Below are positions 4,864 through 23,165 of a stretch of 39,039 nt of DNA, piece by piece; position 1 is the first letter of the stretch, and every line of letters starts with the position of its first letter. This DNA is from Eubacterium sp. UBA4343. Lineage in GTDB: Bacteria > Bacillota > Clostridia > Lachnospirales > Lachnospiraceae. The stretch covers positions 1-39,039 of the forward strand of contig DGTF01000060.1 of assembly GCA_002394235.1 (NCBI GenBank), in the 5' to 3' direction. The position numbers and the translations under genes were made by a program. Under the pieces are notes generated by a model. That model was not told the DNA's origin and made no database searches. It saw nothing but the letters and a program-made list of their open reading frames with translations.

Positions 4864-4922
4864 AAACGAGACGGCCGGAACATTTCCTGCTCAGGGAAAT
4901 GTTCCGGCCGTCTCGTTTTGTT
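4864..4922. terminator. Bidirectional terminator between typA and prs
   Basis: A perfect stem of about 21 bp (CGAGACGGCCGGAACATTTCC and its complement, six-base loop) is flanked by an A-run on the left and TTTTG on the right. It can end both typA on the plus strand and the murC-dnaD-dnaI-prs operon on the minus strand. Confidence 0.95.
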
Positions 4923-10009: not shown

Positions 10010-10126
10010 GCAGACGCCTGAGGTGATAATGACGAATTTCGCACAGCACATACAATACTGATATGCACTGTTTTCGGCAAAAGCTATAAAAAACCGACAA
10101 ATAGAATTGAAAAATTATTTAAAATG

Positions 10127-10196: not shown

Positions 10197-11474
10197 ATGG
10201 TCAAAAAAGAAATGATCGCCATGATCCTCGCGGGCGGACAGGGAAGCAGACTCGGTGTGCTTACTTCGAAGGTTGCAAAGCCTGCAGTGGAATTCGGCGG
10301 TAAATACAGAATCATTGATTTCCCTCTCAGTAACTGTATTAATTCCGGAATCGATACGGTGGGTGTACTGACACAGTATCAGCCGCTTCGGCTGAACAGT
10401 CATATCGGAATAGGAATCCCCTGGGACCTGGACCGGAATGTCGGGGGTGTCACTGTTCTTCCGCCATATGAGAAGAATACAGATACGGAGTGGTACACAG
10501 GAACCGCAAATGCAATTTTTCAGAATCTGGCATATATGGAGTCTTATAATCCGGAATATGTTCTGATTCTCGGCGGTGATCACATCTACAAGATGGATTA
10601 TGAGGTTATGCTGGATTTCCATCGCGCGAACAAGGCGGATGTTACGATTGCATGTATGCCTGTTCCGATGGAGGAGGCAAGCCGTTTCGGTATCATGATA
10701 ACAGACGGTAAAGGACGGATAACCGAGTTTGAGGAAAAACCGGAGCATCCGAGGAGCAACCTTGCTTCCATGGGAATCTACATTTTTTCCTGGAAAACCT
10801 TGAAGGAATCTCTGCTTGCGCTCAGAGATCAGCCCGGGTGCGATTTCGGAAAGCATATCCTGCCTTACTGCAGGGACAGAGGGAACCGGCTGTTCGCTTA
10901 CGAATTCAACGGTTACTGGAAGGATGTCGGAACGCTGGGATCCTACTGGCAGGCGAACATGGAGCTGATCGACATCATACCGGAATTCAATCTGTATGAG
11001 GAATACTGGCGGATCTACACAAAGGGCGACATCATCCGGCCGGAGTACATCTCCGAAAGCGGTGCTGCAGACCGCTGTATCATCGGCGAAGGCTCGGAGA
11101 TCTACGGGGAAGTTCACAATTCCGTGATCGGTCCCGGTGTCACCATACAGAAGGGAGCCGTTGTCAGGGATTCTATTATCATGAGGCGATCCACGGTCGG
11201 TGCGGGCACGAAGATTGAGAAGGCGATTATCGCCGAGCAGGTCCGCATCGGTGAGAACTGCAGCATCGGTGTCGGAGAGGAGGCTCCAAATGTCTTCAAA
11301 CCGAATATTTACGCCTTTGGCCTTGCCACAATCGGCGAGGATACAGTGATCCCGGACGGTATCACAGTAGGGAAGAATACGGTGATATCGGGGAAGACCG
11401 TTCCCGAAGATTATGAAAACGGCATTCTTCCCGGAGGAGGAGCGCTGATCAGGGAGGACGGTGATATCCTATGA
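10197..11474 (+). CDS. glgC: Glucose-1-phosphate adenylyltransferase, catalytic subunit
   Basis: Makes ADP-glucose from glucose 1-phosphate and ATP, the committed step of bacterial glycogen synthesis. The 425-residue protein begins with [10 protein letters not shown] (11-20), the nucleotidyl-transferase signature, followed by [19 protein letters not shown], the [10 protein letters not shown] metal/substrate block, [16 protein letters not shown], and a C-terminal left-handed beta-helix with hexapeptide-like repeats. AGAGGTGA lies a few bases before the ATG. Its stop overlaps the glgD start (ATGA at 11471-11474), which indicates translational coupling. Glycogen synthase and branching enzyme are not in the window. 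Confidence 0.96.
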
Positions 11475-12977: not shown

Positions 12978-13014
12978 CAGAAAGCACCTGGCAGTGACTG
13001 TCAGGTGCTTTCTG
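12978..13014 (+). terminator. Strong hairpin after spoVG, without a T-tract
   Basis: CAGAAAGCACCTG and CAGGTGCTTTCTG form a perfect 13-bp stem, extended by an inner CAGT/ACTG. It is followed by TCGAAATG rather than a run of T. It may be an imperfect terminator for glgC-glgD-spoVG or a stem in the leader of the next gene. It ends 33 bases before that start codon. Confidence 0.5.
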
Positions 13015-13047
13015 TCGAAATGCGGACGGGCGCAGAGAGAGGGAAAA

Positions 13048-14655
13048 ATGAAGCTTCCATATGAGTTTGAGGAGAGAATGAAGAAAATGCTTGGCGATGA
13101 ATATGACGACTTCATGGCCAGCTATGACAGACCGAGGCTTCGGGGCCTTCGTGTGAATACCATGAAGATTACGCCGGAAGAGTTCGAAAAGGCCGCCCCC
13201 TTTCCGGTACGAAGAGTTCCGTGGGTATCCGACGGGTTTATCTATCCGAATGATGTCTTTCCTGCGCGGCATCCGTATTATGCCGCAGGCGTCTATTATC
13301 TTCAGGAGCCAAGTGCAATGACGCCGGCGAGCCGTCTGCCGGTAGAAACCGGAGACCGGGTGTTGGATCTCTGCGCGGCTCCGGGCGGAAAGGCGACGGA
13401 ACTGGCCGCAAGGCTCAGAGGAACAGGTATTCTTGTAGCGAATGATGCGAGCAATTCGAGGGCGAAGGCACTTCTTCGCAATCTTGAGCTGTTTGGTACA
13501 GAGAATATGTTCGTGACGAATGAAATGCCTGACCGGCTTTCCGATGTTTTTTCCGGCTATTTTGATAAGATTCTTGTGGATGCACCCTGTTCCGGCGAAG
13601 GGATGTTCCGGAAGGATCCGGATGTCGCTGAAACCTGGAGTCCGGAGCGCGTAAGGTATTTTGCCGCCCAGCAGCGGAATATTCTGGAAAATGCCAGAAA
13701 AATGCTGAAACCGGGAGGATACCTCATGTATTCCACCTGCACGTTTTCACCGGAAGAGGATGAACAGATGATCAGCTGGTTTATCCGTACATTTCCAGAT
13801 TTTTCTCTCCAGGAGATGGAGGGCTATGCGGGATTTTCGGAAGGAAGACCTGACTGGGCGGACGGCAATCCGGAGCTCCGGAAATGTGTGAGAATCTGGC
13901 CGCACAGAATGGACGGTGAGGGACATTTTCTGGCATTGATGCGAAGAAATTTATCTGTGGATCCGGAGCTTGCAGCGGAATCGGGTCAGAGACAAGGCAA
14001 TATCGCAGCTTCCGCATTGTCCGCATCAAGAGAACTTGTCGATGCCGTGACGGGATTCCCTGCAGGTGAAAGGGCAGGCTGTACGGAAGCCGGTTTATCA
14101 GTATTGGGAATAGGAGACCGTGCGCGGACGGACGACCGTACGCAGAGCGATTTGCTTTGCAGAAGGAAGAAGAAGACGCGCAGAGGCGGAGCCTCGGGAA
14201 AAGGCAGAGGAAGAGAAAATATGCCATCCGACATCCGTCCGGATCCGGAGCAGATGGAGCTTCTCAGTGAGTTTCTCCCACAGGCGGATACGGAGATAAT
14301 TGAGCGACGTGCGGGGAAAGGATATTATGTACAGGAGCTGCCCGATGGCGCGGGAAGGCTGAATTTTCTGAGAAACGGCCTTTATCTCGGGGAATGGAAG
14401 AAAAAAAGATTTGAGCCGTCACAGCCTCTCGCGATGGCGCTGAATCCGGAGAAATTCGGGAGGATTTTTTCTATGAGACCGGAAGATGAAAGAATTGCCC
14501 GCTATCTTCACGGGGAGACAATCCAGGCGGATCCGGAGAGGGAGAAGATCAGCGACGGATGGAATCTCATCTGTGTGGATCGATTCCCGATCGGATGGGG
14601 AAAATATGCGAATGGTACGATAAAGAATAAGTACGCGGCTTCCTGGAGGAAGTGA
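13048..14655 (+). CDS. rsmF: 16S rRNA (cytosine-C5)-methyltransferase, RsmF type
   Basis: SAM-dependent RNA m5C methyltransferase of the NOL1/NOP2/Sun family. The 535-residue protein shows the SAM motif LDLCAAPGGKATEL (107-119), the release cysteine in DAPCSGEG (Cys181) and the nucleophile in STCTFSPEE (Cys231), so it should be active. The C-terminal part (from about 400) fits the PUA-like domain of RsmF-type enzymes. A basic low-complexity insert (about 370-392, RRKKKTRRGG...KGRGRE) separates the two. A longer frame from 12994 runs through the hairpin. ATG 13048 has AGGG upstream and a family-like start. The exact target cytosine cannot be read from sequence. Confidence 0.88.
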   Translation: MKLPYEFEERMKKMLGDEYDDFMASYDRPRLRGLRVNTMKITPEEFEKAAPFPVRRVPWVSDGFIYPNDVFPARHPYYAAGVYYLQEPSAMTPASRLPVETGDRVLDLCAAPGGKATELAARLRGTGILVANDASNSRAKALLRNLELFGTENMFVTNEMPDRLSDVFSGYFDKILVDAPCSGEGMFRKDPDVAETWSPERVRYFAAQQRNILENARKMLKPGGYLMYSTCTFSPEEDEQMISWFIRTFPDFSLQEMEGYAGFSEGRPDWADGNPELRKCVRIWPHRMDGEGHFLALMRRNLSVDPELAAESGQRQGNIAASALSASRELVDAVTGFPAGERAGCTEAGLSVLGIGDRARTDDRTQSDLLCRRKKKTRRGGASGKGRGRENMPSDIRPDPEQMELLSEFLPQADTEIIERRAGKGYYVQELPDGAGRLNFLRNGLYLGEWKKKRFEPSQPLAMALNPEKFGRIFSMRPEDERIARYLHGETIQADPEREKISDGWNLICVDRFPIGWGKYANGTIKNKYAASWRK

Positions 14656-14831: not shown

Positions 14832-15135
14832 GAGCATTTCACGACACGAAGAAGCCCCGGAAGTGACTCGCGAAACGATTCTCGTCCGGAATCGGACGCG
14901 CTGTGGGTTAGTATCATGAGAATACCCGAGCATGCCGGATTATCGCCGGCAGCAAAGAAGTGAAATAAAAGCGGATTGAAACGGTAAAGAGTTCCGAGTG
15001 AAGACTGGCATAGAGGTTGATAAAATATCAGCAGAATTATTGTTTTGAAAAACTAAAAAGCAGTGGCATATTTCTATATCCTGAAGTATACTGATTATAT
15101 CAAAACAGCCATAGAAAATAAAAACACCCCCGGAC
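14832..15135. other. Intergenic stretch before the recombinase cassette
   Basis: No gene is seen. The stretch contains a TGCCGG/CCGGCA hairpin near 14934-14952 and becomes AT-rich toward the left recombination site. No convincing promoter or ribosome binding site was found. Confidence 0.5.
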
Positions 15136-15168
15136 TGCAATATAAGAAATTATTATATTGCAGTTCTG
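15136..15168 (+). repeat. Left inverted recombination site
   Basis: 33 bases that recur as an exact inverted copy at 16505-16537. The core is TGCAATATAA (15136-15145), a 7-base asymmetric spacer GAAATTA, and TTATATTGCA (15153-15162), the layout of a tyrosine-recombinase crossover site. The last six bases (GTTCTG) extend the identity on the inner side. Confidence 0.9.
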
Positions 15169-15183
15169 GGCAAATAATGGCCA

Positions 15184-16173
15184 TCAGGATGGTGGGATGT
15201 AAGTGTGTGTATACACCTGTTCCATGACCCGGCGTTTATCCTCAAGGCTCGGATGCACATACATCAGCATGGTAATATTTACACTCGCATGTCCAAGTAT
15301 CATGCTTACCGTTTTCGGATCGGCGCCGTCTCTGATACACGCAGTTGCAAAGGTGTGACGCAGCGTGTGAAAATTTCTGGCAGGAATGTCAAGCTTCTTC
15401 AGCAGATTTCGGAAACGCTTACTGCAGGAAGAGGGCTCCATACATTTTCTCCTGCCCGTTAACAGGTAGACATCTGACGGCTGCTGCTGTTTCCTTAAAA
15501 GATCAATGATTTCCGGCGGCAGTGGAATGGAACGGATGGAGTTTCTGGTCTTTGGCGGAGCGATCACGAGATGTGTTCTGTGTCCATCTGTATCCGCATT
15601 CGGATTTGGAAGTCTGCCGAGAGATTTTGTAATCTGCAGCACTCCCTCATCGAGATTCAGGTCGCCCCATGTCAGTGCGCAAAGTTCCCCGATACGGATT
15701 CCACTCACCAGAGCCAGAAGGACACCGCTATTATATGGTGTCAGGTTCTGCGTGAGATATCGAACCATCCTGCCTGTCTCTTCCCGGTTGAATATACTGA
15801 TTTCCGGCTGATGAAAAGAAATATGTACCAGATCATTCATGTCCTGCACACAATAATGATTGCATTTCGCATATTTGAAGGCGGAGTTCAGGATCGTTCT
15901 CAACTCCGAAACGGTTGTGGGAGAAAGGCCTCCGGAATTATCCAGCCTTCCGTCTGATAATTTTTGCTTCAGGTAGCTGTTCAGAATATCAGAATCCAGC
16001 TCCGACAGCTGGTATTCTCCAAGATCATGGATGAGATGTTTTTCAATGAGGTATGAATATGTTGCAGGTGTTTTGCCTGACAATGCAGGATCCTCATCCA
16101 GATAGCGACGATAACTCTCCAGGAATTCATGTACCGTGATGATTTGATTTCGGTTTTCTTCTTCCCTATTCAT
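15184..16173 (-). CDS. Tyrosine recombinase inside an inverted-repeat cassette
   Basis: A 329-residue phage-integrase-family recombinase with an N-terminal SAM-like DNA-binding domain (about 13-105) and a catalytic domain (about 125-315). All catalytic residues are present: Arg160 (GIRIGEL), Lys208 (PPKTRNS), His269-x-x-Arg272 (HTLRHTF), His295 (LGHASV) and the nucleophile Tyr305 (LMYVHP). ATG 16173 is preferred because AAAGGAG lies just upstream (three-base spacing, tight). A seven-residue-longer start at 16194 has no ribosome binding site. The gene is flanked at 16 bp (3' side) and 331 bp (5' side) by inverted 33-bp sites with recombinase-site geometry. No excisionase, relaxase or cargo gene is present. 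It probably acts on its own flanks. Confidence 0.93.
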   Translation of the reverse strand: MNREEENRNQIITVHEFLESYRRYLDEDPALSGKTPATYSYLIEKHLIHDLGEYQLSELDSDILNSYLKQKLSDGRLDNSGGLSPTTVSELRTILNSAFKYAKCNHYCVQDMNDLVHISFHQPEISIFNREETGRMVRYLTQNLTPYNSGVLLALVSGIRIGELCALTWGDLNLDEGVLQITKSLGRLPNPNADTDGHRTHLVIAPPKTRNSIRSIPLPPEIIDLLRKQQQPSDVYLLTGRRKCMEPSSCSKRFRNLLKKLDIPARNFHTLRHTFATACIRDGADPKTVSMILGHASVNITMLMYVHPSLEDKRRVMEQVYTHTYIPPS

Positions 16174-16504
16174 ATTCTCCTTTCCAACGATCATGCCAGT
16201 CCAGTAGCAAATTATAGCTCACCTTCCGGGGTTCTTTCCTGTATAATTATCTGAAAAGCCATGGGAATTTTGTTGGCATTCAGTTAACAGAACAGAAAAT
16301 TCAAAATGTGGCTGTCGAGCATTGCCGGATGGCGGAAACTTCATCTGCAAATTTCACTTTTCGGAGTACGGTACAAACAGTAACAATATCTTCTAGTAAT
16401 TAAACATATTTTCTTGCAATAATATACAGGATAATGTATAATATGATCGAAACGGAGATATTGACCAGAATATTTATATAATATATACAATTACAAAACT
16501 GAGT
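16174..16504. other. AT-rich control region inside the cassette
   Basis: No coding sequence. It lies between the recombinase start and the right inverted site, and must contain the recombinase promoter on the minus strand. A TATAAT (minus strand, about 16211-16216) lacks a clear -35. A better promoter on the plus strand faces outward (16414-16442). Confidence 0.5.
16414..16442 (+). promoter_or_regulatory. Outward-facing promoter inside the invertible segment
   Basis: TTGCAA (16414-16419), a 17-base spacer and TATAAT (16437-16442) point toward the right inverted site and pyk. Inversion of the segment would aim it at the 3' side of the methyltransferase gene instead. Confidence 0.6.
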
Positions 16505-16537
16505 CAGAACTGCAATATAATAATTTCTTATATTGCA
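16505..16537 (-). repeat. Right inverted recombination site
   Basis: Exact reverse complement of 15136-15168. The core is TGCAATATAA, the spacer TAATTTC (the reverse complement of the left spacer) and TTATATTGCA. Opposite spacer orientation means that recombination would invert, not delete, the DNA between the sites. Confidence 0.9.
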
Positions 16538-16591: not shown

Positions 16592-16632
16592 GGGCGCCAT
16601 TGGAAACGATGTTTTCAAGGGTGCTTTTTTTC
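16592..16632 (+). terminator. Rho-independent terminator between the cassette and pyk
   Basis: GCGCC and TGGAAA pair with TTTTCA and GGTGC (two wobble pairs), followed by seven T residues. No plus-strand gene ends here in the present orientation. It would stop the outward promoter at 16414, and it would terminate the recombinase gene if the cassette were inverted. Confidence 0.85.
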
Positions 16633-16706: not shown

Positions 16707-16848
16707 AGGAATGCCTGATTGAGCCGGGTGTGCGTGTTTGGGGATGAACAAACATCATCGGTTCGTCGATCTGACATTTCAGGACAGGGATACAATAGGT
16801 GGACTGGTCAAAAAACCTGTCATTTGCTTATCTGTGAAAGGAATAAAT

Positions 16849-18276
16849 ATGCGAAAAACAAAAATTATCTGTACAATCGGACCTGCAAGTGCTTCTGAGG
16901 AAATACTGAGCCGCATGGTGAAGGCGGGTATGAATGTCGCGCGGCTTAACTTTTCTCACGGAACCCATGAAGAGCATCTGGAGAAGATGAAGCTGATCAA
17001 GAAGGTTCGCAATAAGCTGCACCGGCCGATTGCAATTATGCTCGATACGAAGGGACCGGAATACAGGATCGGTGTATTCAAGGATCACAAAGTCACCCTC
17101 AAGGAGGGACAGGAATTTATCTTTACGACGGAAGATCTGATCGGAGATGAAACCATTGTATCGGTCAGCTACAAGGGGTTTGCAGACGAGTTGAAACCGG
17201 GAGATAAGATCCTTGTAAATAATGGACTCGTTGTATGTATTGTCGAGAGAGTAGAGGGAACGAAGGTCTTCACAAAAGTGGAAGCTGGAGGGGTTCTCTC
17301 GGACAGAAAGAGCATGAACTTCCCCGGGAAGCTGATGAAGAATGATTTCCTCAGTGAGCAGGACAGGGAAGATCTTCTGTTCGGAATCAAGAATGATGTG
17401 GATTATATTGCCGCTTCCTTTGTATCGACAAGGGAAGATGCGCAGGAGATGAGGGATTTTCTGAACGCGAACGGTGGCCAGGATATCGATATTATCGCAA
17501 AGATCGAGAACCGGGCCGGGGTGAATAATATCCGTGAGATCTCGGAAGTGGTTGACGGCATCATGGTTGCGAGAGGAGATCTCGGAGTAGAGATTCCGTA
17601 TATGGAGGTGCCGGCTGTTCAGAAGGAGATCGCGCAGGAATGCAGACTTCTCGGGCGCCGCGTCATCATCGCAACGGAGATGCTGGAATCAATGATCAAT
17701 AATATCCGCCCGACCCGTGCCGAAATTTCCGATGTAGCGAATGCGGTATATGACGGTGCGTCCGCCATCATGCTCTCAGGTGAATCCGCGGCTGGAAAAT
17801 ATCCGGTGGAAGCGGTTCAGACAATGGCGCAGGTTGCAGAGTTTACGGAGCAGCATATCAACTACCGGAAACGTTTCAAGAACACGGAATTTGTGCAGAA
17901 GAACATTCTGGACGCGATTTCGCACTCCACATGCTCCATGGCAATCGATGTAGACGCGAAATGCATCGTGGTAAGTTCAAAATCGGGAATGACGGCGCGG
18001 ATGGTCAGCCGGTTCCGCTGTCCGGTACAAATCATCGGTATGACGACGTCGGAGAAGGTTTACCGCAAGCTCTCTTTGAGCTGGGGCGTCGAGCCGATTC
18101 TCTGCGAGGAATTTGAGTCGATTGATGTTCTGTTCTATCATGCAATTCGCCAGGCTGTCAATATCCTCAACCTCAAGATGGGAGACAACATCGTTCTCAC
18201 CGGCGGACCGGTCGGCGGAGGAAAAGGCGGAACAAATATGATTAAGGTGGAGACCATCCACAGAAATTATCAGTAA
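16849..18276 (+). CDS. pyk: Pyruvate kinase
   Basis: Final ATP-yielding step of glycolysis. The 475-residue protein starts MRKTKIICTIGPAS and contains RLNFSHG (33-38 region), LDTKGPEYRIG, DIIAKIENRAG (catalytic Lys and metal-binding Glu), MVARGDLGVEIP and TRAEISDVANAVYDGASAIMLSGES as spaced blocks of the family. It lacks the extra C-terminal PEP-utiliser domain found in some Firmicutes enzymes. A longer frame from 16738 exists, but ATG 16849 has AAAGGA nine bases upstream and the family N-terminus. No convincing terminator separates it from the c-di-GMP gene downstream. A GCCCCG/CGGGGC hairpin at about 18342-18357 lacks a T-tract. Confidence 0.97.
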   Translation: MRKTKIICTIGPASASEEILSRMVKAGMNVARLNFSHGTHEEHLEKMKLIKKVRNKLHRPIAIMLDTKGPEYRIGVFKDHKVTLKEGQEFIFTTEDLIGDETIVSVSYKGFADELKPGDKILVNNGLVVCIVERVEGTKVFTKVEAGGVLSDRKSMNFPGKLMKNDFLSEQDREDLLFGIKNDVDYIAASFVSTREDAQEMRDFLNANGGQDIDIIAKIENRAGVNNIREISEVVDGIMVARGDLGVEIPYMEVPAVQKEIAQECRLLGRRVIIATEMLESMINNIRPTRAEISDVANAVYDGASAIMLSGESAAGKYPVEAVQTMAQVAEFTEQHINYRKRFKNTEFVQKNILDAISHSTCSMAIDVDAKCIVVSSKSGMTARMVSRFRCPVQIIGMTTSEKVYRKLSLSWGVEPILCEEFESIDVLFYHAIRQAVNILNLKMGDNIVLTGGPVGGGKGGTNMIKVETIHRNYQ

Positions 18277-18473
18277 TGGTACTGCAGGATTGCAAGAGTG
18301 CGGAGCACGGACTAATCCGTAGCTTATACAGCATGTGACGCCCCGCCTGCGGGGCATGGGGCTGCTGAAGAAGCTCTTCGAAAACGCAGACAGACCGCCT
18401 GCCGCGAAGCGTGCGTGAGAGACAGGATGCGATTTCGAAGGTAACAGGTATGAGCATGAAAGGCGAGGACAAA

Positions 18474-21400
18474 ATGGCTGAGATGATGCTTGATGAGAGA
18501 AGACAGTATGCTCAATATTTTAATCTTCTGCAGGGAGGCGTCTGCATGATTGCAGCCGATGGGTCGGAGCGCATCGTCTTTGCCAGCAGGCAGATGGCGC
18601 TTCTCTTCGAGTGTGAGGACGAGGAGGAGTTTCTGAAGAATTATCCTTGCTATCAATATCTGATGGATGGGAGAGATTACAAGCCTCTTCAAGAGTATGG
18701 CAATTTGCATCCAGAGCACTTTTCGGTGAATTTTCATTATCAGACGAAAAAAGGACACTTCCGTGAGGCAGAGGGAACGGGTGCTTTAAGGAATACTGCT
18801 TTCGGAAAAACCTATGTTCTGCAGATCTTCTCATCGGAGCAGATTTCAAATGACCGAAAAGTGGATGGGATAACCGAATTGCCGGGGATGCATGATTTCT
18901 TAAATGAGGCGTTACGACGTGCGAAGGAGAGAAAAGCCATCCACAGATTAAGAGACTTCTGTCCGGTCTGCTTTGATGTTACAAATTTTAAGGAATATAA
19001 CCGGCAATACGGTATTCATCAGGGAGATCTGTGCCTGAAGAAGATCGGAGACACGATCACGGAAGTTTTCCCGGGTGCTCTCGTCGGCCATCTCGCGGCG
19101 GACCGATTTGTTGCGCTGCCGTCGGAGAAGAATCTTGAGGTAAAGCTTGAACAGATCTGCGATGAAGTGAATCACTATATCAATGATGACGGGATTCAGA
19201 TAAAGGCCGGCGCCTACCGGGCGTCAGAGAACGACTCTCTGGAGGATCTGCGGAATGCGTTTGATCTGGCAAAAATGGCCTGTGACAGCATTAAGGAGGA
19301 CGGCAACCGGATTGTGGCGTTTTACGAACCCTCTATGGGGGAAAGTGCTGCGAATAAGACCTATGTTCTCCGCCATTTCAATGAGGCACTGGAAAGGCAT
19401 TATATCAAGGTATATCTGCAGCCTGTGATCCGCACAATGACAGGACGGGTGAGCGGATTCGAGGCATTGGCGCGATGGGAAGACCCGGAGCTTGGGATGA
19501 TATACCCGAACGTGTTTATCCCTGTTCTGGAAGAGGCCCAGCTGATCAACCGGCTCGACCGGTATATTCTGGAGCATGTTCTCTACCTCAGCCGTGACCG
19601 GATGGAGAACGGACTTCCACTGCTTCCGATATCCATGAACCTTTCCGCCTATGATTTCGAGGTGGTGAACCCGCTCGATACGATTGAGAAGCTGGTCAGC
19701 CGTTACCATGTACCGAGGAGTGTCCTCTGCTTTGAGATCACGGAACGGATCATGCTCCGCAACCGTCACAGCATGGTCAGGACGATTCAAAGGTTTCAGC
19801 AGGCAGGATATCAGATCTGGATGGATGATTTCGGAAGCGAATACTCGTCCCTGAATTCTCTTCATAATTTCCAGTTTGATGTGATCAAGATTGACATGGG
19901 ATTTTTCAGTCATTTTGATGATCGAAGCCGGCAGATTATTACCTCCGTTGTAACAATGGCGAAAATGCTCGGGGTGGAGACACTGGCAGAAGGCGTGGAG
20001 ACGCAGGAGCAGGTTTCCTTTCTCAAAAAAATCAACTGCGGTCGGATTCAGGGATATTATTACGGACGTCCGATGCGCTACGAGGATAGCGTGACGTATA
20101 TCCATGGCAGAGGCATGCAGATAGAGAGTCCGGAGGAAGCACATCTTCTCGACGCCGCAGAAGACATCAATATAATTTCGGATTCCCCTACTTCGCTTTT
20201 TAGCTTTGATGGGAAGCATATTGTTCTTCTGCTCGAAAACGATGCGTACCGGAGGGAGCTGAGAAGTGCAGGTACGCAGAGTATGGAGGAGGAGAATGCC
20301 TACCTCAGCGATGAGGGATCTCCAGTGAGAGACAGGTTTGTCCAGCTTTTGCAGAGAGCATTGAAGTCACATGCGGAAGAGAGCATGGTGTACGCGGACA
20401 ACGGCCAGTATATGAAGGTAAATGTCCGGTGGATTGCGGGAGATGCGCGGCGCTGGGTCGGGGTGGCACATATCTACAATATCAGCAATAATGCTTCGTT
20501 GCAGTTTGCGAACAACCTTGACCATACGCTGCGGAACATCTTTCAGCTGTATGAGGGATTTTATCTGATCGATCGTGGATCTGAAGAGGTGAAAATTCTC
20601 CGGTCCAGCCATCCGGAGATAAAATCTCAGGATGGCTTTTCTTCGATAGCGGCGTTTGTCCGGTACTTCAGGGATGAATTGATCTATCCGGACGACAGAG
20701 ATCGTTTTTTTGCTTTTGTTCAGGCTGAGAATGCTGAGACGGAAGGTGGAAGTACAGATAAGGGGATCAGGGCAGAGATACTGCGTGTGCGTACCGCTGA
20801 CGGGACATACAGGTGGGCGGTGTTTGAAGCACTGGTGCTCTATAAGAGTAAAGCAAAAAATCTTCTTCTCTGTGAGCGGGAGGATATATGGGAGAGGAAA
20901 AGAGATAGGGATGCTCTTCTTCCTGAATTTTGTCAGTCGTTCGGAGTGCCGGGATACGGCACAGATCCGACGGAGGAGGTGAAGGATGGGGATCTGTTCC
21001 GGACACTCTGCGATGCATCTCCTTATGAATTCTTCTGGATGGACAGACAGAGAAAGCTTTTGGGCGCAAGCAGAGAATTTGTCAGGAGAATCGGGCTTTC
21101 CGACGAGAAGGACTATCTTGGCAAGACAGAATCAGAACTGGGATGGCATATCGATTCTGCCGCAGCGGAGCTGGAGGAGAAAAAAGTTCTGGAGATGGGC
21201 GTCAGGTCGACATCGGCCAATGAGCTGGTACTGACCGGAGGCAGACTCGACGGAATCGAGATTACCCGTGTTCCCTGGTACCATGAAAAGGAAATCGTGG
21301 GAATGATGGGAATGATCAGCGGTGATCGGGCAGAGGACAGAAAGAAGGAGGTGCGCCTGGGATTTGTCGACCGCGACACAGAGCTATTGAGTTTTCGCGG

Positions 21401-23165
21401 CGCGATAGAAGCCGGATTGATATATGCGGATCAGTATCGGCTGAAAAAAATCGATTATACAGGACTTTTAATTGATGTTGCCGCATATGCCGAGGCGATG
21501 CGGGAAAGCACCGAGAAGGCAAAGGTGATTCTGACCGAAATATCTGCGACACTGAAAAAACTGATGAATCCGGAATGGGCGATCGCGCGGATCGGGCTGT
21601 GCTGTTTTCTGTGCTTCTGCCGCAGGGATCATGCCGGAGATGTTGAAGAGAAGATTGACAGGGTATCCGGAATGCTTCCGACGCTTTGGAGAAAGCTCGG
21701 AATTCAGGCTGATCCCGTTCTGGCGCATGCGATTGTCTACGGGTCGGAGGTAACGAGCCTGGACGAGATGTTCATGCTGCTGATCCGGAGAATCAGCAGC
21801 ACGGAGAAGGCGGCTCATGGGGAGAGCCCATATGTCGGGGATTACATTGACCTGAGACGTGAGGTGTTCGACAGCCTGACGGAACATGTCATTGTCAGTG
21901 ATCCCAGAACATACGAGCTTGTATATATGAATCGTTCTGCCCGAAGGGATTTTGGAATAAAACCGGATGGCAGCCTGAACGGGTGCCGCTGTTATGAGGT
22001 GCTGGAAGGTCAGGATGTTCCCTGCGCCGACTGTCCGAATCTGTTGCTGCGGAAGGATTGTGCGTATGAGGCATCACACCTGAACCGGAGAAGGGGAGCA
22101 AAAGTACTGATTCGTTCTGCTCTGACAACATGGGAGAACCGGACGCTGAGGCTGACGGTCGAATTTGATATCAACAAGTATCTGCATGCAATAGCAAGGG
22201 ATCACGAGCTGATCTATCAGGAGATGCGGGCAAATGAGGCAATTTCTCTTGGTATGGCGGAAGAGGATCCCGGAACAGGAATCGAGAAGACGATTGCATG
22301 TATCTCTGAAAATATGAGATCGGAGCGCTTCCTGATCTTTGAGGAACGTGATGACAATACGGTAAGTGCCACCTATGAATGGACGGCACCTGGTGTTTTT
22401 TCTCTGAAGGAGGAGCTGCAGAGTATTCCTCTCTCGGAATTGCGGGCGCTGTATACGCAGTTTGCCTCACAGCATGTGGTAATGGTCAGTGATATGGATG
22501 CCTTTCAGAAGGAAAATCCCGGTTTTTCCATGCGAATCCATGATGTCCGGAGCTTTATATCCGGGCAGTTGAAGATCCTGAATCAGACAGAGGGCTTTAT
22601 GATGGTTATCAATCCGGCGGAGGACACCTTCCGTAACACCAGCGTGCTGCTCTCCACGCTGACGGATTTCATAGCAATTATGATTCGAAACAGGAACAGC
22701 GTGCACCAGCTGGAGAAACAAAGCATGATTGACCAGATGACGGGCGCCGGAAACCGGAGGGCTCTTGAGCGGCAGATCCGCGAGTGGAAGGGTGACGGTC
22801 TGCTTGGAGTGATTTCCGTTGACCTGAACGGACTGAAGAACACAAACGATACGGCGGGCCATCATGCCGGCGATGTGCTGATTTGCGAAACAGCCCGGGT
22901 TCTTCAGGAATGCGCAGGTGAAAAGTATGTGTTTCGCACGGGCGGGGATGAATTTATCGTTCTGACAGAAGATCTGGAGGAGAGAGATATCAGCCTGCTG
23001 ATACGGCATATGCGTGAGAATGCAGAAAATAATGGAATCAGTATGGCAATTGGGTTTGCGGCATGCCGGGGGAAGGTTACGGACTTTGACGCGCTGCTCA
23101 CCAGGGCGGATTTCAATATGTATAAGGATAAGGGACACAGTTTCCGCAGAAGAAGAGATGATTGA
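18474..23165 (+). CDS. Multi-sensor GGDEF/EAL c-di-GMP signalling protein
   Basis: A 1563-residue protein, apparently cytoplasmic (no membrane segments seen). Approximate layout: PAS-like (10-125), degenerate GGDEF with AADRF (208-212), EAL domain (305-560), three PAS-like modules (575-690, 680-815, 840-960), a second degenerate GGDEF-like region (965-1110), a PAS-like module with CxC...CxxC cysteines (1171, 1173, 1184, 1187), a GAF-like module (1245-1385) and a C-terminal GGDEF with an intact signature (1490-1494). The EAL domain keeps EALARW (Glu330), SMNLS, EITERI, DDFG (451-452), KID and AEGVE, so it looks catalytically competent as a c-di-GMP phosphodiesterase. The last GGDEF looks active and has no RxxD inhibitory site. 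ATG 18474 is chosen because GAGG precedes it. Upstream GTG and ATG codons are possible. Module boundaries are estimates. Confidence 0.88.
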   Translation: MAEMMLDERRQYAQYFNLLQGGVCMIAADGSERIVFASRQMALLFECEDEEEFLKNYPCYQYLMDGRDYKPLQEYGNLHPEHFSVNFHYQTKKGHFREAEGTGALRNTAFGKTYVLQIFSSEQISNDRKVDGITELPGMHDFLNEALRRAKERKAIHRLRDFCPVCFDVTNFKEYNRQYGIHQGDLCLKKIGDTITEVFPGALVGHLAADRFVALPSEKNLEVKLEQICDEVNHYINDDGIQIKAGAYRASENDSLEDLRNAFDLAKMACDSIKEDGNRIVAFYEPSMGESAANKTYVLRHFNEALERHYIKVYLQPVIRTMTGRVSGFEALARWEDPELGMIYPNVFIPVLEEAQLINRLDRYILEHVLYLSRDRMENGLPLLPISMNLSAYDFEVVNPLDTIEKLVSRYHVPRSVLCFEITERIMLRNRHSMVRTIQRFQQAGYQIWMDDFGSEYSSLNSLHNFQFDVIKIDMGFFSHFDDRSRQIITSVVTMAKMLGVETLAEGVETQEQVSFLKKINCGRIQGYYYGRPMRYEDSVTYIHGRGMQIESPEEAHLLDAAEDINIISDSPTSLFSFDGKHIVLLLENDAYRRELRSAGTQSMEEENAYLSDEGSPVRDRFVQLLQRALKSHAEESMVYADNGQYMKVNVRWIAGDARRWVGVAHIYNISNNASLQFANNLDHTLRNIFQLYEGFYLIDRGSEEVKILRSSHPEIKSQDGFSSIAAFVRYFRDELIYPDDRDRFFAFVQAENAETEGGSTDKGIRAEILRVRTADGTYRWAVFEALVLYKSKAKNLLLCEREDIWERKRDRDALLPEFCQSFGVPGYGTDPTEEVKDGDLFRTLCDASPYEFFWMDRQRKLLGASREFVRRIGLSDEKDYLGKTESELGWHIDSAAAELEEKKVLEMGVRSTSANELVLTGGRLDGIEITRVPWYHEKEIVGMMGMISGDRAEDRKKEVRLGFVDRDTELLSFRGAIEAGLIYADQYRLKKIDYTGLLIDVAAYAEAMRESTEKAKVILTEISATLKKLMNPEWAIARIGLCCFLCFCRRDHAGDVEEKIDRVSGMLPTLWRKLGIQADPVLAHAIVYGSEVTSLDEMFMLLIRRISSTEKAAHGESPYVGDYIDLRREVFDSLTEHVIVSDPRTYELVYMNRSARRDFGIKPDGSLNGCRCYEVLEGQDVPCADCPNLLLRKDCAYEASHLNRRRGAKVLIRSALTTWENRTLRLTVEFDINKYLHAIARDHELIYQEMRANEAISLGMAEEDPGTGIEKTIACISENMRSERFLIFEERDDNTVSATYEWTAPGVFSLKEELQSIPLSELRALYTQFASQHVVMVSDMDAFQKENPGFSMRIHDVRSFISGQLKILNQTEGFMMVINPAEDTFRNTSVLLSTLTDFIAIMIRNRNSVHQLEKQSMIDQMTGAGNRRALERQIREWKGDGLLGVISVDLNGLKNTNDTAGHHAGDVLICETARVLQECAGEKYVFRTGGDEFIVLTEDLEERDISLLIRHMRENAENNGISMAIGFAACRGKVTDFDALLTRADFNMYKDKGHSFRRRRDD

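Follow-up and report, generated by a model that had tools for sequence, protein, structure and literature searches.

Layout of the locus and its proposed crossover sites

The window, the whole 39,039-nucleotide stretch of Eubacterium sp. UBA4343 DNA that was analysed, contains a cassette in which one tyrosine recombinase gene lies between two inverted copies of a 33-bp site. Pfam matches identify glgD-like, spoVG and rsmF-type genes to its left and a pyruvate kinase gene to its right, the names glgD and rsmF being our reading of those matches. The features of the locus are as follows.

12994..14655, + strand: rsmF-type rRNA methyltransferase, left neighbour, also present in congener G014 and on the contig of congener G009 that ends at the site
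15136..15168, + strand: left crossover site; 27-bp core at 15136-15162, spacer GAAATTA, inner extension up to 15168
15184..16194, - strand: tyrosine recombinase, 336 aa; PF00589, E 9.3e-24
16385..16504, no strand assigned: conserved control block at the cassette 5' end, defined by identity to congeners
16414..16442, + strand: outward promoter-like site TTGCAA-17-TATAAT pointing to pyk; consensus match only
16438..16467, - strand: inward promoter-like site TGGTCA-18-TATTAT, 9/12; consensus match only
16505..16537, - strand: right crossover site, an exact inverted copy of the left; core at 16511-16537, spacer TAATTTC on the + strand
16593..16631, + strand: terminator-like hairpin and T run between cassette and pyk, -15.5 kcal/mol
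16846..18276, + strand: pyruvate kinase (pyk), right neighbour, also present in G009 and G014

The two sites are 100% complementary over 33 bp, with 1336 nt separating the arms. Each is built on the core TGCAATATAA-N7-TTATATTGCA, a 10-7-10 dyad in which 10-bp arms flank a 7-bp spacer, and the spacers, GAAATTA on the left and TAATTTC on the right of the + strand, are in opposite orientation. Allowing up to three mismatches, the core was found twice in the window against 0 expected from 100 shuffles, and in the draft genome (2.55 Mb, 85.8% complete) it matched only at the two cassette ends; a second copy of the site or of the recombinase gene was not found in that draft. Across the orthologous loci the conserved part of the site is the 27-bp core, with arms of 10 to 11 bp, and the 6-bp inner extension GTTCTG that completes the 33 bp is altered on one side in G009. 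Read leftward, the left site forms a hairpin (-19.9 kcal/mol) followed by a T-rich tail, an arrangement resembling a terminator for the recombinase mRNA; inspection of the right site by eye revealed no directly adjacent T tract. A tRNA scan of the whole window returned none, and an Rfam search of the cassette locus and the two orthologous loci gave no match at E<=1. Positions 14832-15135, between rsmF and the left site, are non-coding and without an Rfam match, and 14832-15168 is 83% identical to G014. Downstream of pyk, positions 18411-23165 encode a protein of 1584 aa in which GGDEF-like and EAL-like motifs were recognized by eye; it had no match at E<=1e-8 in the stretches retrieved from G014 and G009.

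The recombinase belongs to the tyrosine recombinases by its PF00589 domain and its R-K-H-R-H-Y residues. These residues (R167, K215, H276, R279, H302 and Y312), which we take to be the catalytic six of the family, are invariant among the three orthologues of the window, G014 and G009. PF00589 was the only domain detected in the protein, which does not qualify as a serine recombinase of the Hin type. Translation probably begins at 16173, at an ATG just 3' of AAAGGAG, giving 329 aa, because the ATG at 16194 is out of frame in G009. With dN/dS values of 0.095-0.097 and synonymous distances of 0.84-1.08 among the three orthologues, the gene is under purifying selection. The SAM-like domain starts near residue 20 in the orthologues, compared with residues 69-101 in five scanned relatives of 375 to 408 aa, and the enzyme therefore lacks the N-terminal extension of these longer proteins. 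The enzyme matches phage integrase families; outside four clusters at 81% identity or more, its nearest homologues (best 120 of 230) are 39% identical and carry PF14659 together with PF00589. A viral contig search yielded just three loci at 23-26% identity, and a search of the contig collection returned two congeners and one 25% match. An earlier note, made from these letters alone, had described the exact inverted pair with its 10-7-10 geometry, the opposed spacers and the complete catalytic set, and all three descriptions were borne out.

The three-species cassette alignment is conserved over columns 1-160, at the 5' end, and not over columns 161-340; positions 16385-16537, site included, are 91% identical to G014 across 153 bases. 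Within this block the outward promoter-like site has identical hexamers and spacing in the window, G014 and G009. Its -35 matches the consensus at 4/6, and its weight lies in this conservation rather than in the match itself, since shuffled versions of the scanned window region contained 5.9 sites (sd 2.5) and the real one nine. The inward promoter-like site is likewise present in G014 and G009, with its -10 overlapping the outward -10, and could serve the recombinase. The earlier note's statement that the segment has no cargo thus holds for genes and has to be modified for the conserved outward promoter-like sequence inside it.

A hairpin with a T run precedes pyk in all three species (-15.5 kcal/mol in the window, -23.2 in G009 and -23.4 in G014, values obtained with no shuffled control), and the window's copy at 16593..16631 was not reported by the pattern scan for terminators and promoters. 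As terminator-like hairpins flank the cassette on both sides, pyk and rsmF look shielded and the locus has no evident target or phase-variable gene; pyk as a simple target is disfavoured by the terminator-like hairpins between it and the cassette. Rightward from rsmF, only a weak hairpin (-12.3) precedes the cassette in the window and none in G014, so rsmF transcription may enter the cassette. Such read-through may run antisense to the recombinase gene in the window and sense to it in G014, which, from the arrangement of the locus, suggests that recombinase expression depends on cassette orientation.

Orthologous loci and a reversed cassette in the genus

Among 16 genomes of the genus, its own included, five contained a match to the recombinase at E<=1e-30: the own genome, G014 and G009 (85% and 81% protein identity, respectively) and two others at 34-35%. 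G014 and G009 have the same two sites around the gene, with pyk downstream. The site, at up to two mismatches, was present in three of the nine genus genomes searched, exactly the three with an orthologue (seven genus genomes lay outside this search). In G014 the gene order glgD-spoVG-rsmF-cassette-pyk is that of the window and the cassette is reversed: its stretches correspond, read backward, to window positions 16537-16385 and 16257-15135, both flanks align in the forward direction, and the breakpoints at which the direction changes fall inside the crossover sites. In G009 the orientation toward pyk is that of the window. Of the three species found to carry this cassette, two therefore share one orientation and one has the opposite, and in all three the junction of left flank and site falls at the identical base. 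Inverted repeats thus bound a segment that is found in both orientations between species, as in an inverton, and the opposite orientation at the same place in G014 makes a self-flipping switch very likely.

The G009 rsmF gene lies on a separate contig, C117, the last 55 bases of which are the first 55 of the cassette contig C63, and the overlap stops with the final base that is identical in both inner cassette ends. With de Bruijn assemblers, a 55-base contig overlap can be read as a k-mer fork. The 31-bp repeat alone would not break a k=55 graph, whereas two continuations of the rsmF-side flank would. The overlap, seen at the left junction only, therefore fits what would be expected if reads held both orientations, an indirect indication within one population; mixed strains with fixed orientations, or another cause of contig breakage, could also explain it. 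By-eye inspection of contig ends near the sites of two loci of the wider family (L076 and L088) showed no fit to a simple k-mer overlap.

In all seven congeners that have pyk and lack the orthologue, rsmF was absent from the fetched pyk stretch (in G001 this stretch held just 468 bases upstream of pyk), and the flanks of these seven showed no similarity apart from one 31-base match. As rsmF was not in the fetched stretches, they provide no empty allele for comparison.

Several further observations were made at these loci. Both inner arms, and neither outer arm, of the G014 sites (L025:8657-8689 and 10030-10062) have the same T-to-C change, perhaps a concerted change by branch migration or conversion. 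The G014 pyk (L025:10515-11941) is split into two frames meeting near 10958, with 148 and 328 residues matched, and we read the split as a probable frameshift of assembly or strain. The genus also contains a second bracketed recombinase, 33-37% identical to that of the window, at L070:920-2093 (G001) and L071:12425-13654 (G007); these loci have TTTCGCAGAA-type arms and the same orientation relative to a shared hairpin. Two adjacent distant recombinase genes, with matches at 4865 and 6246, occupy contig C8 of G000 (L012, 4746-7898); the one that was examined has a flanking direct repeat of score 31.

Related cassettes across the Lachnospiraceae

A profile of the three orthologues was searched against 397 family genomes (E<=1e-50, up to five candidates scored per genome). 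Seventy genomes matched, with at least 88 matches including that of the window; 72 of the other 87 were examined for repeats and 15 were left out. Together with the window, its two orthologues, the two congener genes at 34-35% and four distant recombinases from the window's genome, this gave 81 loci. Inverted repeats (score >=16, with loci cut by contig ends counted as misses) bracketed the gene in 47 of the 81, and scoring direct repeats were found in five. Bracketing was observed at 42 of the 72 family loci, representing 34 further genera, at 5/5 window, orthologue and congener loci and at 0/4 distant loci; the remaining 30 of the 72 were not bracketed under the test used, among them L084, which was scored as a miss though an inverted pair of score 18 is present there (L063) around the wrongly chosen ORF. 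Four of the five direct-repeat loci are also bracketed by inverted repeats, probably through the similarity of a dyad site to its inverse, and the fifth is a distant own-genome recombinase. Cassettes of this build, approximately 1.1-2.0 kb long, thus recur in 35 genera of one family as sampled by 397 genomes. On the recombinase tree bracketing is clustered without forming one clade (16 changes against a shuffled mean of 26).

Most repeats of the class are 10-7-10 dyads of 27 bp, their arms close to TTTCGTAGAG, from which the arms of the window are divergent. The exact-arm pattern of the window was found only in its own genome among the 397 family genomes, which contain one other genus member, and more distant relatives therefore use other arms. 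Spacers and arms were compared in the 39 of 44 pairs of score >=18 that passed a dyad filter (L070, L071, L081, L124 and L130 failed it). Within pairs, spacers showed 0 mismatches at 273 positions whereas arms differed at 106 of 780, a contrast somewhat inflated because the exact 9-base seed favours matching centres; 32 different spacers occurred among the 39 pairs. Outer and inner arms did not differ significantly in decay (46 vs 60, p 0.21).

Promoter-like sites matching at least 10/12 were present in the 5' gap of 31 of the 47 bracketed cassettes in the outward direction and of six in the inward direction, against 9.5% of base-shuffled gaps; at 9/12 the counts were 40 outward and 24 inward, against 46% of shuffled gaps. 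Among the 47 are the non-independent loci of the three orthologues and the two congeners, as well as a few loci with almost no 5' gap; the three orthologues are counted among both the 39 pairs and the 31 promoter matches.

By a longest-ORF heuristic, the neighbouring gene points away from the cassette at 35 of 42 positions on the 3' side and 25 of 46 on the 5' side. The 42 family loci have 48 away-facing neighbours of at least 100 aa within 600 bp, of which 46 were scanned, L087:5043-5348 and L105:779-1942 being left out. Pfam matches, among the first 25 of 54 families and each in one to five of the 46, included HTH regulators, CpsB/CapC, glycosyltransferases, response regulators, surface-protein repeats, Cas12f-like TNB and DEAD helicases. 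PADLOC models for HTH, control-protein, type IV restriction and Cas12f families, among the first 25 of 38, matched up to three of the 46 each. Cas12f1-like TNB domain proteins are found 3' of bracketed recombinases at L094:1251-2579 and L097:4076-5428, and a shorter protein with a similar N-terminus and no Pfam match lies 3' of another at L101:3600-4145; the recombinases of these three loci form one clade with that of L088. DEAD/ResIII helicases (L105:3495-5681, which also has helicase-associated repeats, and L107:3396-4400) adjoin bracketed recombinases of a single clade.

Interpretation and relation to known systems

We consider, with high confidence, that the cassette is a self-inverting promoter cassette (an inverton) with its own tyrosine recombinase; judged by comparison of the three genomes, it is a real self-bracketed inverton, with naturally occurring alleles in either orientation. 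Transcribed from within the segment, the recombinase would bind the 10-bp arms of the two inverted sites, and strand exchange across the identical 7-bp spacers would flip approximately 1.4 kb carrying the recombinase gene and the conserved outward promoter-like sequence. An outward transcript would then run toward pyk in one orientation and toward the 3' side of rsmF in the other, and each flip would switch rsmF-derived transcription between antisense (window) and sense (G014) to the recombinase gene. We infer cleavage of these sites by the recombinase, continued flipping, activity of the promoters and any influence on the neighbouring genes.

Three other explanations were weighed. An ancestral inversion in a switch that is now locked would account for the single flipped allele among three species and for the want of an evident target gene; we think it improbable, given a dN/dS of about 0.1 with invariant catalytic residues, near-identical sites across a synonymous distance of about 0.8-1.1 and the contig overlap in G009. 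Slightly less credible is a tiny mobile element, a recombinase-only insertion with terminal inverted repeats, of which the G014 copy would be an independent insertion in the opposite direction. The cassette is indeed short, with one gene, inverted ends and terminator-like hairpins on both sides, its enzyme resembles phage integrases and its orthologues occur in just three of 16 genus genomes, the own genome included. All three copies nevertheless have the same neighbours (in G009 via two overlapping contigs) and the left flank meets the site at one base throughout; both ends are complete dyad sites that include an outer arm, the draft genome holds no second gene or site copy, and integration of a circle would, we reason, leave the spacers in direct rather than inverted orientation. 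That the dyads are only transcription terminators insulating a chromosomal recombinase that acts elsewhere is very unlikely, since, for all the folding of the left site and its leftward T tract, identical spacers stand inverted at both ends in three species, inspection by eye showed no T tract immediately beside the right site, no other such site occurs in the draft genome and the segment is flipped in G014.

The self-inverting cassette is thus preferred, and it was in this form that the earlier note had proposed it, suggesting that related genomes be searched for the same site and for inverted alleles. Such a search located the site in G014 and G009 and an inverted allele, with breakpoints within the sites, in G014; the G009 contig overlap ending at the site and the class-wide identity of spacers within pairs lend the proposed inversion further comparative support. 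Its view that this does not look like an integrated element agrees with the layout: a single gene lies between inverted sites, and direct att repeats around cargo, the mark of an integrative element, were not found. Its suggestion of a minimal phase-variation switch is upheld in part: the outward promoter-like site agrees with it, and the terminator-like hairpins on both sides and the lack of an identified phase-variable gene do not.

A more speculative reading, which we consider less likely than not, is that this is a self-referential switch with no outside cargo gene, in which the flip mainly sets transcription of its own recombinase, with or against rsmF-operon transcription and between terminators at both ends. 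It might then serve, next to core metabolic genes, as a DNA memory that is bistable and times itself, a divergent form of a widespread Lachnospiraceae class of invertible promoters in which a private tyrosine recombinase and a private 7-bp spacer would prevent cross-recombination of co-resident switches.

What began as a guess from sequence is now a very probable switch with a naturally flipped allele, and the same build, with outward promoter-like site, tyrosine recombinase and its own site pair, is common among relatives. Some cassettes of the class adjoin capsule, surface-protein, regulator or nuclease-like genes, and such compact switches could account for heterogeneity in little-studied anaerobes. 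They are natural candidates for orthogonal recombinase tools, and their differing spacers supply a testable rule on which switches can recombine together.

A search of the open-licence literature found no description of this cassette, which is weak evidence of absence. The sites of Cre/loxP, FLP/FRT and Xer/dif have inverted arms of approximately 10-13 bp and a 6- to 8-bp spacer; the cassette sites share this geometry and differ in their arms, and their natural role here would be local inversion. Integrases with PF14659 and PF00589, presumably of the Tn916 type, are the nearest homologues at 39% (best 120 of 230), but the window enzyme is without the N-terminal extension of the longer ones, and no excisionase was noticed beside it, though no dedicated search was made. 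Switches of the fim and RecV/cwpV types resemble the cassette in combining a tyrosine recombinase, inverted repeats and an invertible promoter. In fim the recombinase gene lies outside the switch, and this is also where RecV/cwpV-type switches differ from the cassette.

The hin switch has a promoter reading outward. According to PMC5903667, an invertible segment occasionally contains a recombinase, Hin being the example given; in Salmonella hin, as in the cassette, the recombinase gene is inside the segment that is inverted. The same paper lists Cdi7 as the one C. difficile R20291 switch that has a recombinase nearby. The Hin enzyme belongs to the serine recombinases, whereas the cassette has a tyrosine recombinase, 10-7-10 sites and no known target gene, so that it resembles the hin switch in layout and is not a Hin-type member. 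PMC11892184 links by proximity a Clostridia inverton group 139 to a tyrosine recombinase group, invertase group 35; the inverton group comprises 33 invertons, 32 of them from Clostridia and nearly all with a tyrosine-type recombinase nearby; a proximal invertase is there one that intersects the inverton or lies within 5 kb, and the passage on this group does not say whether the gene is inside. Insofar as this description allows, the cassette and inverton group 139 with invertase group 35 probably belong to the same wider class.
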